This document shows positions 25,532 to 43,363 of a stretch of 64,000 nucleotides of DNA, piece after piece. Position numbers and translations under genes: made by a program. How positions within the stretch are numbered: position 1 is the stretch's first letter; each line of letters begins with the position of its first letter. The notes beneath the pieces were generated by a model. It was given only the letters and a program-made list of their open reading frames with translations. It was not told where the DNA came from and did no database searches. Origin of the DNA: Rhodocyclaceae bacterium. Lineage in GTDB: Bacteria > Pseudomonadota > Gammaproteobacteria > Burkholderiales > CAIKXV01. Where the stretch lies: contig JADCHX010000011.1 in the NCBI GenBank assembly GCA_020248265.1, forward strand, positions 326,670 through 390,669, written 5' to 3'.

Positions 25532-26827
25532 GTGACCCAGACCTTGACCCTGCTCGGCATTCCGGTCGAGTTCCTCCTGTTTGCCTGCACGCTGCTGGGC
25601 GTCGCGCTGTTCCATGCCCACACGCTGAAGGTGGCATTGATCGGGCTTGCTGTGATCACCAGCTACAAGCTCGCGTATGTGGGTTTCCACCATGGCGCGG
25701 GACTGGCCGGGCTGGCGTCCCACCTCGGGCATGAATGGGTGCTCCTTGCGAACCTGATGATGCTGCTGGTCGGCTTTGCGGTGCTCGCACGCTTCTTCGA
25801 TGCCAGCAGGGTCCCGGAAATGTTGCCGCGCTTCCTGCCGGACGACTGGAGGGGCGCATTCATGCTGCTGGTGCTGATCTTCGTGCTGTCCAGTTTCCTC
25901 GACAACATCGCGGCTGCGATCATTGGTGGCACCGTCGCGGCCAGCGTGTTCAAGGGGCGGGTACACATCGGCTACCTCGCTGCGATCGTCGCCGCGTCGA
26001 ATGCCGGGGGTTCTGGCAGCGTGGTGGGCGACACCACGACGACCATGATGTGGATCGGCGGCGTGGATCCGCTCGATGTCGTGCATGCCTATGTCGCGGC
26101 GGTCGTCGCGTTGGTGGTGTGCGGCATTCCGGCCGCGCTGCAGCAGCATCGCCACCAGCCGATCACCGCCGACGTCGCACCGGGCGTGCGCATCGACTGG
26201 GTGCGGGTCGGTATCGTTGCTTTCATCCTGGCATCGGCCATCGCCGCCAATGTCTACGTGAACCTGAGGCATGCGGCGCTCGCCGACAGCTTCCCGTTCA
26301 TCGGCGTCGCGGTGTTCGGCGCCATCCTGCTCAGTTCGCTGCTGCGTCGGCCCGACTGGGCTGTGGTGCCGGAGGCCGCGAAGGGTGCGCTGTTCCTGCT
26401 GTCGCTGGTGCTCTGTGCCTCGATGATGCCCGTCGAGCACCTGCCGGTGGCGAGCTGGCAGACGGCGCTCGGCCTGGGGTTCGTGTCCTCGGTGTTCGAC
26501 AACATTCCGTTGACCAAGCTCGCGCTCGAGCAGGGTGGCTACGACTGGGGTTTCCTTGCGTTCGCGGTCGGCTACGGCGGCTCGATGCTCTGGTTCGGGT
26601 CGTCGGCCGGTATCGCGCTGTCCAACCAGTTCCCGCAGGCACGATCGGTCGGTGCGTGGCTGCGGCACGGTTGGCATGTGGCGCTGGGCTATGTCGTTGG
26701 GTTCTCCGTGATGCTGCTGGTGCTCGGCTGGCATCCGCACGAACCGCAGCGGCGCGGCGATGCGGCTGCTCCGGCGGTCGTGGCTGCGCCGTCCATCGAT
26801 GCTGCGAGGATGCCGGCTGGCGCCTGA
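25532..26827 (+). CDS. Ion-transporter-superfamily permease (citrate/NhaD-like)
   Basis: The 431-residue integral membrane protein has about ten to twelve hydrophobic segments. Hairpin-type motifs typical of the ion transporter superfamily are SSFLDNIAAAIIGGTVAASVF and, later, SSVFDNIPLTKLALEQ, each placing a polar DN(I) inside the membrane. NAGGSGSVVGDTTTTMMWIGG is another family-like segment. Such proteins include NhaD-type sodium/proton antiporters and citrate carriers; which one this is cannot be decided. The start is GTG 25532. The hydrophilic C-terminus is Pro/Ala-rich. It ends 15 bp from the stop of the convergent flagellin gene. Confidence 0.85.
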   Translation: MTQTLTLLGIPVEFLLFACTLLGVALFHAHTLKVALIGLAVITSYKLAYVGFHHGAGLAGLASHLGHEWVLLANLMMLLVGFAVLARFFDASRVPEMLPRFLPDDWRGAFMLLVLIFVLSSFLDNIAAAIIGGTVAASVFKGRVHIGYLAAIVAASNAGGSGSVVGDTTTTMMWIGGVDPLDVVHAYVAAVVALVVCGIPAALQQHRHQPITADVAPGVRIDWVRVGIVAFILASAIAANVYVNLRHAALADSFPFIGVAVFGAILLSSLLRRPDWAVVPEAAKGALFLLSLVLCASMMPVEHLPVASWQTALGLGFVSSVFDNIPLTKLALEQGGYDWGFLAFAVGYGGSMLWFGSSAGIALSNQFPQARSVGAWLRHGWHVALGYVVGFSVMLLVLGWHPHEPQRRGDAAAPAVVAAPSIDAARMPAGA

Positions 26828-26842: not shown

Positions 26843-28564
26843 TCAGCGCAGCAGCGACAGCGCGAGCTGCGGCACCGCATTCGCCTGCGCGAGCATCGAT
26901 ACCGCCGCCTGCTGCAGGATCTGCGCGCGGACCTGCTTCGCGGTTTCCTCGGCGAAGTCGGCGTCCATGATGCGCGACCGGCTCGCCGCGATATTCACCG
27001 CCCCCGACTTCAGGTTGGCGATCACGCTGTCCATCCGTGACAGCTGCGCGCCGATCTGGCCGCGCTGGCTGTTCAGGAAACCGAGCGCTTCATCGATGTG
27101 CACGATCGCCCGCCGCGCATCCTTCGCAAGGTCGACCTCGCCCAGGCCGAGTGCCTGCACGTTGACGGCGCCGATCCGCGCGTCGATGGTCTGGCCGCCT
27201 TCCTGCAGCGAAGACTGGGTGCCGACATGGAACGACAGGTCGCGCGTCGAGGTGCCGGTCGGGTTCGATTCGTCGTACTTGAGCCGGAACCCCTTCAGCG
27301 TGCTGTCGCCGTAGGACGTGCCGCTGATGTTGTCGATGATGCTGGCCGCGGTGAAGACTTTGCCATTGTCCGCATCCAGCCCGCCGATCGCGCCGGTATC
27401 GGCGTTGGTGAGGTTGATGTGGCTGTTGAAGAAGGCCGCGCCGTTGCCGGCGAACGCGGTCTCGAAGGCGGTACGCGTCGTGGGGCCGCCCGAGGCCGCG
27501 AAGAACTGGCTGAACGCGGCATCCATGGTCGCCCCGGGTCGCGACAGGAACTGCATGAAATCCTTGAGGCCGCCGCTCGCGCCGGCATCCTTCAGTGCCT
27601 GGTGCAGGTAACGCGTCGCGAGGTAGCCGGTCGAATAGCTCGCGGAGTTGCCGCCCCAGCTGGTGATCGGTGCCGCGGCGAGCAGCGCGCCGATGCCGCC
27701 GGCGGCCTGCACGTCGGCGGCCAGCCGCTCGTCCGCACCGTGGATGAACTCCGCTGCACCTTCGGTGAACCAGGTCGGGAGCGCCTGGAAATCATCCATC
27801 GACCGGTACATCACTGCATGCACCATCTCGTGCGCGATGATCCGGTCGTTGTAGAACGGCGCGTTGCCACCATCGGGCAGGTTGGGCGGCGTGAAATCGG
27901 CCATATCCACCTGCAGCTTCAGGCTGCTGCCCTTGACGCCCGGGCCGGGGGCCGCGAACGAACCGGCCACGCGGGCGGCGGTGCCGCTCGCGCCGTCGGT
28001 GAAGGTGGTCAGCTGTACCTGCAGTTCGGCGCCGTCGCCCTGGATGCCGAAGAATCTGCTGATCCGGCTCTCCGCCTCCTCGAGCCAGCCGAGCTTCAGC
28101 CCGTCCAGTACGGCGCGTATGCTGGCGTCGCCGCCGATGCCCTGCGTATCCTGCGAGAACACCTGGCTGCCATTGAAGGTGGTGGCGCGTGCGACGCGAT
28201 CGATCTCCGCCATCAGCTGCGACACCTCGGCCTGCAGTGCGGCCCGGTCGCTGGTGTTGTTCGTGCCGTTCGCTGCCTGCACTGCGAGTTCCCTCGCGCG
28301 CTGCAGCGCGTCGACCACCGTGCCCATCGCTCCTTCCGCGGTCTGCAGCAGCGACACGCTGTCGTTCGCATTGCGTTCGGCGCGGTTCATCCCGCGCAGC
28401 TGAGCGGTCATGCGTGACCCCACCGCCAGCCCCGCTGCGTCATCGGCTGCGGTATTGATCCGCACCCCGGAGGACAGGCGCGACAGTGAACGCGACAGGT
28501 CGCTCGACGTACGGTCGAGCGATCGCTGGGCGTTCAGGGCCGCGGTGTTGGTGTAGATCTGCAT
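26843..28564 (-). CDS. fliC: Flagellin with an inserted zinc metallopeptidase domain (flagellinolysin)
   Basis: The 573-residue protein has complete flagellin ends: the N-terminal D0/D1 coiled region (IYTNTAALNAQRSLDRTSSDL, residues 3-135) and the C-terminal D1/D0 region (about 460-573, ending VPQLALSLLR). The variable region carries a peptidase domain with HEMVH at residues 245-249 and WFTEGAAEF, where Glu 268 is the likely third zinc ligand. This is the architecture of flagellinolysins, flagellins that assemble into proteolytic filaments, known from Clostridium and some betaproteobacteria such as Hylemonella. Export is by the flagellar type III system. The first residue is ATG 28564. A sigma-28 promoter lies 52 bp upstream. 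No other flagellar gene is in the window, so it may be a second flagellin. Confidence 0.95.
   Translation of the reverse strand: MQIYTNTAALNAQRSLDRTSSDLSRSLSRLSSGVRINTAADDAAGLAVGSRMTAQLRGMNRAERNANDSVSLLQTAEGAMGTVVDALQRARELAVQAANGTNNTSDRAALQAEVSQLMAEIDRVARATTFNGSQVFSQDTQGIGGDASIRAVLDGLKLGWLEEAESRISRFFGIQGDGAELQVQLTTFTDGASGTAARVAGSFAAPGPGVKGSSLKLQVDMADFTPPNLPDGGNAPFYNDRIIAHEMVHAVMYRSMDDFQALPTWFTEGAAEFIHGADERLAADVQAAGGIGALLAAAPITSWGGNSASYSTGYLATRYLHQALKDAGASGGLKDFMQFLSRPGATMDAAFSQFFAASGGPTTRTAFETAFAGNGAAFFNSHINLTNADTGAIGGLDADNGKVFTAASIIDNISGTSYGDSTLKGFRLKYDESNPTGTSTRDLSFHVGTQSSLQEGGQTIDARIGAVNVQALGLGEVDLAKDARRAIVHIDEALGFLNSQRGQIGAQLSRMDSVIANLKSGAVNIAASRSRIMDADFAEETAKQVRAQILQQAAVSMLAQANAVPQLALSLLR
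27816..27832 (-). other. HExxH zinc-binding motif of the flagellinolysin
   Basis: Codons for His 245, Glu 246, Met, Val and His 249 read HEMVH on the minus strand, followed by Ala. His 245 and His 249 should hold zinc and Glu 246 should act as general base. The third ligand, Glu 268, lies at about 27763-27761. All the catalytic residues expected for a gluzincin-type peptidase are present. Confidence 0.9.
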
Positions 28565-28642: not shown

Positions 28643-28777
28643 GGGGGCAGCACGGGCGGTCTCGTATCGCCCCGCCCGGTACTGGGGGGGCACCCCCTGC
28701 AGCTGCCTGCCCTTGCCTGCAACACCGGCGTCCCGCTGCGATATAGTTCCGGCGGCCGCAACAGGGGGGATGGCGTG

Positions 28778-29755
28778 ATGGCGTACAAGGTGGTGGTGAC
28801 GCGCGAGGTGTTCGACGATGTACTCGAACGGCTTCGCGCCGGAGCGACGGTGGTCGACAACCCGTCCGACAGGCCGTTGTCCCCGGAAGAGCTGGCGGCG
28901 CGTGCGGCGGATGCCGATGCGCTCGTCTGTGCGCTGACCGACCGCATCGACGATGCACTGCTCGCCCGTTGCCCGAAGCTGAAGGTCGTGGCCAACATCG
29001 CGGTCGGCCACAACAACATCGACCTGGCGGCCTGTACTGCGCGCGGCGTGATGGCCACGAATACCCCCGGGGTTCTCGACGAGACCACTGCCGATTTCGC
29101 ATGGGCGCTGATGCTCGGTGCGGCGCGCCGTGTCACCGAGGCCGAGCGGTACCTGCGCGAAGGCCGGTGGACGGGATGGCAGCTGAAGCAGTTGCTCGGA
29201 GTGGATGTGCACCATGCGACGCTCGGAATTATCGGCATGGGCCGAATCGGGCAGGCGATCGCACGGCGTGCGCAGGGCTTTTCGATGTCGGTCCTTTACT
29301 GCAACCGCAGTCGCCTCGACGCCGAGACCGAGCGCAGCCTGAACGCCCGCTGGGTGGCCCGCGACGAACTGCTGACCGCAGCGGATTTCGTCGTGCTGAT
29401 GGTGCCGTATTCGCCAGCGACCCACCACCTGATCGGCGCGGCCGAGCTCGCTCGGATGAAGCCGACGGCGGTCCTGGTCAATACCGCCCGCGGCGGGGTG
29501 GTCGATGACCGCGCCCTGGTCGAGGCATTGCGCCGGCGGACGATCGCCGCGGCCGGCATCGACGTGTTCGAAGGCGAACCGGCTTTCGACCGTGACTTCC
29601 TCGCGCTCGACAACGTTGTGCTCGCACCGCACATCGCCAGTTCGTCCGCTGCCACGCGCCGCGGGATGGCGATGCTGGCTGCCCGCAATGCGCTGTGCGT
29701 TCTCTCCGGGGAGCGCCCGCCGAACCTGCTCAACCCCGATGCCTGGAAGTCCTGA
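28778..29755 (+). CDS. D-2-hydroxyacid dehydrogenase (glyoxylate/hydroxypyruvate reductase-like)
   Basis: The 325-residue NAD(P)-dependent enzyme belongs to the D-isomer-specific 2-hydroxyacid dehydrogenase family. It has the dinucleotide motif GIIGMGRIGQAIA and the catalytic trio: Arg in VNTARGGVVDD, Glu in DVFEGEP and His in APHIASSS. The N-terminal domain contains VVANIAVGHNNIDL. It reduces a 2-oxoacid such as glyoxylate or hydroxypyruvate, or oxidises the hydroxyacid; which one is not decided by the sequence. ATG 28778 is preferred to GTG 28775. The gene is divergent from the flagellin and is followed 21 bp later by the Kelch gene. Confidence 0.92.
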   Translation: MAYKVVVTREVFDDVLERLRAGATVVDNPSDRPLSPEELAARAADADALVCALTDRIDDALLARCPKLKVVANIAVGHNNIDLAACTARGVMATNTPGVLDETTADFAWALMLGAARRVTEAERYLREGRWTGWQLKQLLGVDVHHATLGIIGMGRIGQAIARRAQGFSMSVLYCNRSRLDAETERSLNARWVARDELLTAADFVVLMVPYSPATHHLIGAAELARMKPTAVLVNTARGGVVDDRALVEALRRRTIAAAGIDVFEGEPAFDRDFLALDNVVLAPHIASSSAATRRGMAMLAARNALCVLSGERPPNLLNPDAWKS

Positions 29756-30884: not shown

Positions 30885-32147
30885 TCAGCGTGCGTCGAGC
30901 AACCGGGCTACGACCTCAAGTGCGGTTGCCTCGGCCGCCCTGATCCGGTCGAGCAGCGCAGCCGGGTCGTCGGCCATGGATTCCGCCGCTGCTGTCTCGA
31001 CCGGCGCACGCTCAGCGGACGCGCCTGTGATGGCCGCACGACTGCCTGGCGCTGGCGGGCGCGTGGCGGGCTTCTGGGGCGGGCGGGCCTTCGCGTCGAC
31101 CGGGTTGCGTCCGGCCGGTGCCGCACGCGGCAGGGGCGATGGCCGCTGTCGCGGGCCGGAATTCGTCGCCGGCTCGACGCGTGCCGGCCCGGCATCGATG
31201 GCGGTCTCGGCGGCCAGTGCGGACGCTGCCACGATGCGTGCATCGACCTGCTGGAACAGCGCGACCAGCCGTCCCAGGTCGGAGCCGACGCGCTCGAACG
31301 CCCGCTCGATGGCCGGGTAATGGCGAGCGTAGGTCATGCGGTTCGCCAGCACGATGTTGTTGAGGCTGCCGGCCGGTGAGTCTGTCGCCGCTTCCGCCCT
31401 GGACAGCAGCACCGCGCGTGCGCGCAGCAGGCCGGCCTGGTCGATTTCACCGCGGGCATGCCGTTCATGGAGCGCTGCGACCTGCTGGTAGTGATACAGG
31501 TTGAGCGGGATCCGGCCTGCATTGCGCAGCGCGTAGTCGCGGATGGCACGCCGCTCCGCGGCGCTCCAGGGCCCTGGCTGTGCCGCTATCTCCGTCATGG
31601 CCCGGTAGCTGATGAGTTCGCACAACGGTTCCTCGATACCGTAGGGTAGCGTGAACTGGTCGTGGCAGTCCTCGTGAACGACCAGGTAGATCATTCGCGG
31701 CACGCCGCTGGCGATCATCGACGGCGTCACCGGCGACGCGACTTCGCCGACCGCTTCCGACATGCCATGGTAGGACTCCATGGATGGGGGGATGTCGCGA
31801 CATTGCGCCGGCGTGGCCACGTCCAGCCATTCGATCGCCGGGTCTTCGTACGAGTAGGGCAGCACCAGCTTCGAGGCGCGACCGCAGTACGGGAAACCGG
31901 GCAGGTCCGCGCTCGCATGCGTGAAGTTGGCGGTCGGGACGAAGCCGATGCGGTAGGTGAAGGCCTTTGCCTGTGCGATCGTCTCCTGCCAGGACGTCTC
32001 CTGTTCGATCCGCCGACTGTCGTCTGCGCTGTCGCGTTGCGCGCAACCGACCACCGCCAGCAGGACCATCGTCAGCAGCGTGCGCAGCGCCCGCCAGGCG
32101 GGTACTCCGGCGCTGCCGTTTCCACTGCCTCGCGATCGGAATGTCAT
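30885..32147 (-). CDS. Lipoprotein with an HExxH motif, putative metallopeptidase
   Basis: The 420-residue protein has a lipoprotein signal with the lipobox AVVGC (Cys 35). In the middle is VVHEDCHDQF (His 158, Glu 159, His 162), followed by IEEPLCELISY, which could give the third zinc ligand (Glu 172 or 173). That is the pattern of a zinc metallopeptidase, but I do not recognise the family. The last 130 residues are Pro/Ala/Arg-rich and probably disordered. ATG 32147 gives the classical lipoprotein N-terminus. It converges on the Kelch gene, 7 bp away, and lies 17 bp downstream of the Bug gene on the same strand, so it may be last in that operon. Confidence 0.72.
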   Translation of the reverse strand: MTFRSRGSGNGSAGVPAWRALRTLLTMVLLAVVGCAQRDSADDSRRIEQETSWQETIAQAKAFTYRIGFVPTANFTHASADLPGFPYCGRASKLVLPYSYEDPAIEWLDVATPAQCRDIPPSMESYHGMSEAVGEVASPVTPSMIASGVPRMIYLVVHEDCHDQFTLPYGIEEPLCELISYRAMTEIAAQPGPWSAAERRAIRDYALRNAGRIPLNLYHYQQVAALHERHARGEIDQAGLLRARAVLLSRAEAATDSPAGSLNNIVLANRMTYARHYPAIERAFERVGSDLGRLVALFQQVDARIVAASALAAETAIDAGPARVEPATNSGPRQRPSPLPRAAPAGRNPVDAKARPPQKPATRPPAPGSRAAITGASAERAPVETAAAESMADDPAALLDRIRAAEATALEVVARLLDAR

Positions 32148-32164
32148 GGGTGCCCGCGCTGCGC

Positions 32165-33184
32165 TCAGAGCGGCTCGACCGAAATGCCGGCCTTTCGCAC
32201 TACGCTCGACCAGGTGGCGCGGTCGCGCGCGATCCGGGCCTGCAGGTCTGCAGGCGATCCAGCCTCGAGTTCGATGCCCTGGGTGGCGAACTGGGCTCGT
32301 GCCTCGGCGGTGTCGACGAAGCGCCGTATCTCGGCGTTCACCCGGTCGACGATCTCTTTCGGCGTGCCGCGCCGCGTGACCAGCGAAAACCACGTCGCTG
32401 CCTCGTAGCCACGATAGCCCGCTTCCGCGACGGTCGGCAGTTCGGGTGCAATCGACAGGCGCCTGGGCGAGGTGACAGCCAGCGCGCGCAGCTTGCCGGC
32501 CTTCACGTGCGGCAGAGCCGACAGCGGTACGTCGAATTTCAACGGCACCGCGCCCGACAGCAGGTCGGGCAGCCCGGCCGAGCCGCCCTTGTACGGGATA
32601 TGCTGCATCTTCACGCCGGCCATCGTCATGAACAGTTCGACCGACACATGGGTGATGTTGCCGTTGCCCGAGGACTGGAAGTCGAGCTTGCCCGGGTTGG
32701 CGCGGGCGTATTCGGCAAGGTCGCGCATCGAGCGGATCGGCAGCGACGGATGCACGACGACCATCAGCGGCGATGCACCGACCATGCCGATCGGCGCGAG
32801 GTCGCGCTCGACGTCGTAGGGCAGCTTCGGATAGAAGATCGGGTTCATCACCATGCCGTTGAAGCCACCCATCAGCAAGGTGTAGCCGTCGGGTGCCGCC
32901 TTTGCCTGAAGTTCGAACGCGATGATGGTGTTGGCGCCCGGCCGGTTGTCGAACACCACTGGCTGGCCGATACCCTCCGAGATGCGCGCGCCGACCGCGC
33001 GTGCCAGGAGGTCGGTGGATCCGCCAGGGGTGAACGGAATGATCATGCGCACCGGCCGGGCCGGCCAGGCCTGGGCGTGCACCTGCGCGGCCGGCAGCAG
33101 TCCGGCGAGTGTTCCGATGAATGCGCCCATGAATGCGCCGAGGCGAACCCTGGCAGCGGACATCGGGAGACGGACGATCATCAT
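32165..33184 (-). CDS. Bug-family (TctC) periplasmic solute receptor 3
   Basis: The 339-residue receptor has a signal peptide ending near AQVHAQ and the family blocks AWPARPVRMIIPFTPGGSTDLLAR, GQPVVFDNRPGANT and HIPYKGGSAGLPDLLSGAVPLK. The start ATG 33184 overlaps the amidase stop as ATGA, so translation is coupled to the amidase. This ties the receptor to uptake of an amide or a related compound. No membrane subunits are near. ATG 33163 is a possible downstream start. Confidence 0.92.
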   Translation of the reverse strand: MMIVRLPMSAARVRLGAFMGAFIGTLAGLLPAAQVHAQAWPARPVRMIIPFTPGGSTDLLARAVGARISEGIGQPVVFDNRPGANTIIAFELQAKAAPDGYTLLMGGFNGMVMNPIFYPKLPYDVERDLAPIGMVGASPLMVVVHPSLPIRSMRDLAEYARANPGKLDFQSSGNGNITHVSVELFMTMAGVKMQHIPYKGGSAGLPDLLSGAVPLKFDVPLSALPHVKAGKLRALAVTSPRRLSIAPELPTVAEAGYRGYEAATWFSLVTRRGTPKEIVDRVNAEIRRFVDTAEARAQFATQGIELEAGSPADLQARIARDRATWSSVVRKAGISVEPL

Positions 33185-40739: not shown

Positions 40740-42668
<1,929 letters not shown>

Positions 42669-42787
42669 TTGCTGTTCCTCTCGGGGAGTTCGTTGATTCT
42701 GCAGGGTAGATGGCGCTTGCAGGAAAGCCTGGCGTCCGCCTCAGGATCCTGCGCATGCGTCAAAGCTTGGGATCGGAGGCGCGCTTT

Positions 42788-43363
42788 TCAAGCAGGGGCC
42801 GTGCCGGAATCGTCCGTACCGGGCCTGGGCTTGGCGACCGCGACCATCGCAGGCCGGATCACCCGATCGTGCAGCTTGAAGCCCTTCTGGAACACCTGCA
42901 GCACCGAGTGCGCCGGGGCGTCGGACTCGATGGCAGTCATCGCCTGATGGTGGTGAGGGTCGAATTTCTCGCCGGTCGGGTCGAGCACCGTGACTCCGAA
43001 CTTCTCGAACGCCGCCTTGAGCTGCTTGCGCGTCAGTTCAACCCCATCGCGCAGTGACTCTGCCGTCGCGTTTCCGGTGGCCAGCGCGGCATCGAGCGCG
43101 TCGTAAACCGGAAGCAGTTCGCCAGCGAAGTTGTCGATCGCGTACTTGTGGGCACTCGATACGTCTGCCTGCGCACGCTTGCGGATATTGTCAGCTTCGG
43201 CCTTTGCCCGCAGCCAGTTTTCCTGGTGCTCCTGCGCAAGGGTTTCGGCCCTGGCCAGCGCCTCGGCGAGCCCTGCCGCATCGGCCGGCGCGCCGTGGGT
43301 GGCTGTTGCCGGATCCTGCGGCGATTCCGGCTGACCGGCCTGGGATGTATCATGTTGCGACAT
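42788..43363 (-). CDS. grpE: Nucleotide exchange factor GrpE
   Basis: GrpE opens DnaK to release ADP. The 191-residue protein has a long N-terminal helix (EALARAETLAQEHQENWLRAKAEADNIRKRA region), a hydrophobic dimer segment and the C-terminal beta domain with FDPHHHQAMTAIE and QKGFKLHDRVIRPAMVAVA. Start ATG 43363. Its gene leads grpE-dnaK-dnaJ, read from a sigma-32 promoter about 143 nt upstream. Confidence 0.96.
   Translation of the reverse strand: MSQHDTSQAGQPESPQDPATATHGAPADAAGLAEALARAETLAQEHQENWLRAKAEADNIRKRAQADVSSAHKYAIDNFAGELLPVYDALDAALATGNATAESLRDGVELTRKQLKAAFEKFGVTVLDPTGEKFDPHHHQAMTAIESDAPAHSVLQVFQKGFKLHDRVIRPAMVAVAKPRPGTDDSGTAPA

Follow-up and report, generated by a model that had tools for sequence, protein, structure and literature searches.

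Introduction

Flagellins with a built-in protein-cutting enzyme are a kind described in 2017, and these flagellinolysins (FlaMPs) have, according to the main text of PMC7643111, already been seen in 'hundreds of bacterial species'. In FliA(H) of Clostridium haemolyticum, as presented in the main text of PMC5595980, the flagellin ends flank an outward peptidase with an HExxH motif, a distal Glu and an Ala three residues on, and the protein is a second flagellin alongside the structural one. The same paper names the lack of the double-glycine motif of collagenases as a further trait. HgrFlaMP of Hylemonella gracilis, a Gram-negative member of the Comamonadaceae, is encoded by an orphan gene off the flagellar clusters, and its domain is a Zn- and Ca-dependent peptidase which also cleaves another species' flagellins (main text of PMC7643111). 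The family, its filament-borne activity and the orphan location in H. gracilis are already published in these two papers. We describe here a flagellinolysin gene from a Rhodocyclaceae bacterium (assembly GCA_020248265.1), located in a stretch of 64,000 nucleotides of contig JADCHX010000011.1, positions 326,670 to 390,669 (the window). Our reading, to which we give a probability of about 0.8, is that its product is a sigma-28-driven, exported and co-polymerised minority subunit, exposing a zinc peptidase outwards.

A flagellin with an intact peptidase domain

By its sequence, the window protein is a member of the flagellinolysin family. The NCBIfam model NF033876 (flagellinolysin) scores 402.6 bits for a cut-off of 205, over residues 110-504 and profile positions 1-384 of 384, which bears out the family assignment of an original prediction made from the letters of the window. 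Flagellin domains lie at both protein ends, as expected of a FlaMP, both in Pfam and in the predicted fold. Flagellin_N (PF00669) matches residues 3-138 with 138.1 bits (cut-off 26.6), and Flagellin_C (PF00700) residues 489-572 with 73.3 bits (cut-off 23), so the D0/D1 ends are intact, as had been claimed. In between, HEMVH and WFTEGAAEF with its Glu 268 were found in the 573-aa translation at the positions announced (Table 1), and H245, E246, H249, E268 and A271 reproduce the HExxH, distal Glu and Ala three residues on that mark the predicted active site of a FlaMP. Membership of the Peptidase M9 (collagenase) family was not found, as Pfam PF01752 gave 22.1 bits, under its gathering score of 26.

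Compared to the described proteins, the distance from the first His to the Glu is 23 residues, versus 29 (233 to 262) in FliA(H) (main text of PMC5595980), and HExxH stands at 245-249, versus 249-253 in HgrFlaMP (main text of PMC7643111). The peptidase domain of the clostridial collagenases (M9; ColH, ColG, ColT) is 13% identical to the window domain. Lugdulysin (7bb8), an M30 peptidase of Staphylococcus lugdunensis, is a secreted enzyme without a flagellin part. Its identity to the window domain is also 13%.

Relatives were collected by scanning the GTDB species collection with a pattern; the scan gave 161 encoding stretches, the best 80 of which were kept. Methyloversatilis sp. XJ19-49 (L008) and Acidovorax radicis N35 (L035), both culturable, are among the carriers. 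With 2 viral and 5 genus-genome loci, 87 locus proteins were parsed, some representing the same gene twice (e.g. L005 and L092). Thirteen were dropped from the main alignment, seven as incomplete or interrupted (L058, L062, L063, L070, L071, L075, L093), then the viral L084 and L085, and L086, L087, L088 and L092, leaving 74 relatives and the window protein, 75 sequences in all. HEMVH is present in 86 of the 87 parsed proteins, the exception being L062, parsed as a mere 9 aa owing to a stop near its start, and H245, E246, H249, W265, E268, G269, A271 and E272 are invariant across the 75; the motif is therefore beyond chance. The spacing from first His to Glu is 21-30 residues wherever the motif was found (85/87). 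The flagellinolysin frame is interrupted in L093 (genome G014), L075 and L062, which may be due to sequencing error.

Selection was estimated against the relatives L004, L005 and L006. Values of omega (NG86) were 0.107, 0.172 and 0.191, respectively, for residues 141-400, and 0.100, 0.144 and 0.164 for the whole gene. Modelling the fold, a check proposed with the original prediction, gave a confident gluzincin-like fold related to the collagenase peptidase domain, as expected of a FlaMP, with the motif residues carried on two predicted helices (HEMVH within 239-255, WFTEGAAEF within 264-275). The latter segment aligned with WLNEG of an M1 peptidase and WFEEGSAEF of collagenase T, both weak matches. 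The domain is thus intact, with its catalytic residues invariant and a low omega, in agreement with the view that it bears no obvious inactivating change.

Could the peptidase nevertheless be catalytically dead, and serve as an adhesive or structural outer domain? The whole gene was lost in a related genome (see below), which would suit such a role. However, the catalytic residues are all invariant in the 75 sequences, the omega of the domain is 0.11-0.19, the gluzincin-like fold is confidently predicted, and the loss seen in the genus is a gene deletion, not motif decay, so that we hold a dead domain to be very improbable. Judged from its sequence, the window gene is a well-preserved second flagellin, and probably a working one.

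Flagellar genes and a promoter-like site

The host assembly (4.55 Mb, 98.28% complete, draft in 33 contigs) encodes three Flagellin_N proteins: the flagellinolysin, a conventional flagellin (C15) and an FlgL-like protein (C19), read as FlgL because FlgK adjoins. The C15 locus has the order flagellin, FlaG, FliD, FliS, FliT, while C19 encodes FlgK, the FlgL-like protein, FlgI, FlhA and the sigma factor FliA (281.6 bits, cut-off 189.6). Among the 30 other ORFs of the window scanned with Pfam, 5 of which had no match at all, no flagellar gene was found. The remark that none lay nearby therefore holds for these ORFs, and the genome search that had been advised, by finding the conventional flagellin and its machinery on C15 and C19, fits the proposal of a second flagellin joining a filament made by others. 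Prerequisites for co-assembly, namely conventional flagellin, export and cap genes, are present in the genome.

In this isolation the window gene differs from that of C. haemolyticum, which lies in a flagellar cluster, and resembles the orphan HgrFlaMP gene, although the latter has a NUDIX hydrolase and a MarR regulator as neighbours, in place of an NhaD-like transporter and a 2-hydroxyacid dehydrogenase (main text of PMC7643111). HgrFlaMP activity was measured in that work; that of the window protein is predicted.

How general this arrangement is was examined in the 40 loci, out of 80, that are not titled as metagenome-assembled, leaving out L032 and the interrupted L075; flagellins were counted by eye among the matches listed, the weakest falling outside. 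Each of the 40 genomes had a single flagellinolysin above cut-off, accompanied by one or more further Flagellin_N matches of at least 100 bits. Such a flagellin lay within 20 kb on the same contig in just 2 of them, G093 and G098 (Bacillota), a count limited by contig ends. Beyond the 40, a nearby flagellin-like match was likewise seen in L019, L062 and L075. We conclude that the orphan location is common, but, given these loci, not universal.

Upstream of the gene, a sigma-28-like promoter was detected, using for scoring a sigma-28 consensus with a maximum score of 16. The site, TCAATTTT-N11-GCCGTTAA, scores 14, and is the only one above 12 at the N11 spacing in the whole window, both strands included. 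The genome's own fliC carries TCAAGTTT-N11-GCCGTTAC, likewise scoring 14. A site was present at the corresponding place in L004, L005 and L006 (scores 12, 13 and 13), and the DNA around it, compared by eye, differs in L005 and L006. Over 81 loci (the 80 plus the window), 45 had a site at p≤0.05, relative to 100 random sequences each, and 34 scored at least 13. In its main text, PMC5595980 makes no use of the word 'promoter'.

Proposed mechanism

In the mechanism that we favour, the surface-exposed variable region of a flagellin would house the gluzincin-type zinc peptidase, the gene's own sigma-28-type promoter would drive transcription alongside the late flagellar genes, and the protein would be exported through the flagellar type III system. 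Most subunits of the filament would be the conventional flagellin, whose gene lies at another place in the genome, and the flagellinolysin would co-polymerise with them as a minority. Its peptidase would face outward along the filament, possibly in thousands of copies, and cut proteins or peptides near the cell, the probable benefit being a supply of peptides, or a loosening of matrix and of other cells' surface proteins. The analysis itself shows the sequence, family and conservation, a predicted fold, the flagellar machinery with a conventional flagellin, and a promoter-like site; that the gene is transcribed from this site, that the protein is exported and assembled, that it binds zinc and is active, and on which substrates and to what benefit, is inferred. 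By analogy, the mechanism is most likely the same as that of the Hylemonella domain, a Zn/Ca-dependent peptidase.

Alternatively, the protein would leave by flagellar export and act mainly as a released monomer or clipped peptidase, its flagellin ends being an export signal. A released protease was raised by the authors of PMC7643111, in whose main text the recombinant Hylemonella domain sheds 1-2 kDa or self-digests, and the D0/D1 core of the window protein is merely 53% identical to the genome's fliC. However, the C-terminal D1/D0 region is complete and under purifying selection (omega 0.045, 0.166 and 0.118 against L004, L005 and L006), more than an export signal by itself would require, and C. 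haemolyticum filaments bear the full-length protein (main text of PMC5595980). We therefore consider release unlikely.

Several observations weigh against the co-polymerised outward peptidase. Foldseek gave no match for the peptidase domain at E 0.001 or better. The published calcium ligand near the active site, Asp206 in FliA(H), could not be placed with certainty on the window sequence: D220 and D223 are at least 90% conserved and D240 is invariant, in an alignment that holds no C. haemolyticum sequence. With the consensus used, 36 of the 81 loci had no sigma-28-like site at p 0.05 or better, and such a site was found in 0 of the 15 loci titled Nitrosomonas, so that control may differ there. 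Finally, no match above cut-off was obtained in 7 of the 11 genus genomes, some of which are incomplete, and the gene is therefore dispensable. The Nitrosomonas loci without a site include L007, L010, L011 and L064.

A probably old gene at a shared site

Table 1. Features of the flagellinolysin locus, in window positions.
Feature	Position	Strand	Remarks
Flagellinolysin gene	26843..28564	-	573 aa, stop included; no internal stop
N-terminal flagellin D0/D1 region, residues 1-140	28145..28564	-	
Gluzincin-type zinc peptidase domain (predicted), residues 141-400	27365..28144	-	
HEMVH, residues 245-249	27818..27832	-	predicted zinc His pair and general base Glu246
WFTEGAAEF, residues 265-273	27746..27772	-	predicted third zinc ligand Glu268, plus Ala271
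Stretch linking peptidase to C-terminal flagellin helices, residues 401-487	27104..27364	-	three beta strands in model
C-terminal flagellin D1/D0 region, residues 488-573, and stop	26843..27103	-	Pfam PF00700
Sigma-28-like promoter TCAATTTT-N11-GCCGTTAA	28616..28642	-	ends 51 bases before ATG
Flanking NhaD-like transporter gene	25532..26827	+	matches under NCBIfam cut-offs; synteny
Flanking D-2-hydroxyacid dehydrogenase gene	28775..29755	+	Pfam PF02826/PF00389; synteny

Of the 11 genus genomes, 4 carry the gene, which in G000 and G007 sits between the NhaD-like and dehydrogenase genes; in G009 the placement is the same except for 4.2 kb of additional DNA towards the dehydrogenase gene, and in G006 only the NhaD-like side is visible. 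An assembly artefact, joining a foreign organism's gene into the contig, might be suspected in a draft of 33 contigs with the gene far from the flagellar genes. It is contradicted by the order NhaD-like, FlaMP, dehydrogenase being repeated on another species' contig (L004/L138), and by the NhaD-like side found again on L005 and L006, which makes its probability negligible.

In the non-carriers G003, G010 and G004, the interval between the two flanking genes is 153, 138 and 149 bases, respectively. Within the gap of G003 (L141:2453-2605), roughly the final 26 codons of the gene survive in damaged form, together with 18 bases past the stop. The score of this remnant is 148 with the window sequence and 94-138 with L004-L006, for null maxima of 43-45 (300 shuffles each). 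A further match of the same gap, to the window's upstream DNA on the dehydrogenase side (57 vs 45), is expected, since that DNA is flank. For G010, scores of 46-65 against null maxima of 40-43 are suggestive of a deletion scar, and in G004 a scar was not established (43-55 vs 38-50). The comparison of the site covers these three of the seven non-carriers: in G002, G005 and G008 no close dehydrogenase was found, and the contig of G001 ends before the NhaD-like gene.

The unrooted tree of the flanking genes is (G004-,(G003-,(G000+,G007+)),(G010-,(G009+,G006+))), + and - denoting carriers and non-carriers; it is a tree of linked genes and not of species, with G006 represented by part of one gene. 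As no single split separates the carriers (G000 and G007; G009 and G006) from the non-carriers, they do not form one group. Based on the shared site, the split of the carriers and the G003 remnant, we infer that the flagellinolysin gene has long occupied this site and was lost on more than one occasion. A single loss, in the remnant-bearing relative, is well supported; further losses would be expected under this history. A recent gain by the window genome and L004 alone is unlikely, as the carriers fall in two groups, at the same site, and G003 has a remnant. Two independent gains at one site would be a less probable history.

L005:1776-6000 and L006:1-3443 hold extra genes upstream of the flagellinolysin gene, by eye like a tripartite TRAP-type transporter set; in L005 they lie between it and the dehydrogenase gene. 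In the window, with two genes between it and the flagellinolysin gene, ORF 30885-32393 (-), which has no Pfam or NCBIfam match, contains HEDCH and, after it, GIEEPLCE, and may encode an HExxH peptidase. Further on, the stretch 41010-42947 (+) matches PF10712 'NAD-specific glutamate dehydrogenase' with 726.9 bits, opposite a 642-aa ORF at 40740-42668. The PF10712 family is suspected of being the antisense of a real gene such as dnaK.

Origin of the gene

A D0/D1 core tree was built with FastTree from 89 rows, including 13 conventional flagellins, and is read without support values (row L118_flagellin is the L006 flagellinolysin again and was not counted as a flagellin; L113 and L119, too short, were omitted). 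The window gene falls among other proteobacterial flagellinolysins, apart from the genus's fliC. Identities in D0/D1 to the window protein are 55.8-61.6% for the 11 nearest flagellinolysins outside the genus, 53.3-54.1% for the genus's eight fliC and 55.0% for the L062 flagellin. Given this placement, although identities differ little, we think that the gene descends as a whole. Insertion of a peptidase into the genus's native flagellin is unlikely by this tree; by identity the gap is small. The Bacillota flagellinolysins L068 and L082 group with Bacillota flagellins. Both routes of origin are already proposed in the main text of PMC5595980.

Related peptidase domains on phage-like contigs

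Two IMG/VR contigs (L084:77-2188 and L085:3831-5948) encode a tail protein of about 700 aa (phrog_1887; DUF5048) ending in a flagellinolysin-like peptidase with HEMVH. Their profile scores are 195.8 and 186.9 bits, and those to NF033876 197.3 and 184.7, versus its cut-off of 205. A tail fibre gene adjoins the tail-protease gene in both, and L085 also has an endolysin gene. No match to the peptidase was found in INPHARED phages with the nearly verbatim window domain as query; with L085, 7 records matched, by the tail part only, and a viral-contig scan with the L085 peptidase domain recovered L085 alone. The same domain gave 3 matches in 299 genomes of the order of G093, in open frames of 541-609 aa, which suggest flagellinolysins, G093 alone being confirmed. 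The word 'phage' is absent from the main text of both FlaMP papers (PMC5595980, PMC7643111). A tentative idea, which we find rather less than even in probability, is that the peptidase is a modular outward enzyme that bacteria and phages place on various extracellular tube-like machines. On flagella it would be part of a minority flagellin under sigma-28 control, open to loss by clean deletion, and on the two phage-like contigs L084 and L085 it would form the end of a tail protein. If this were true, filament proteolysis would be a conditional trait under changing selection.

Significance

The window gene adds one well-supported species group to a known family, and its novelty is low. Its useful part is that closely related species differ in having or lacking the gene at a single site, and that a recognisable remnant persists in one of the species that lack it. 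Through this natural comparison of presence and absence, the benefit of flagellar proteolysis becomes testable, for instance by comparing lifestyles.
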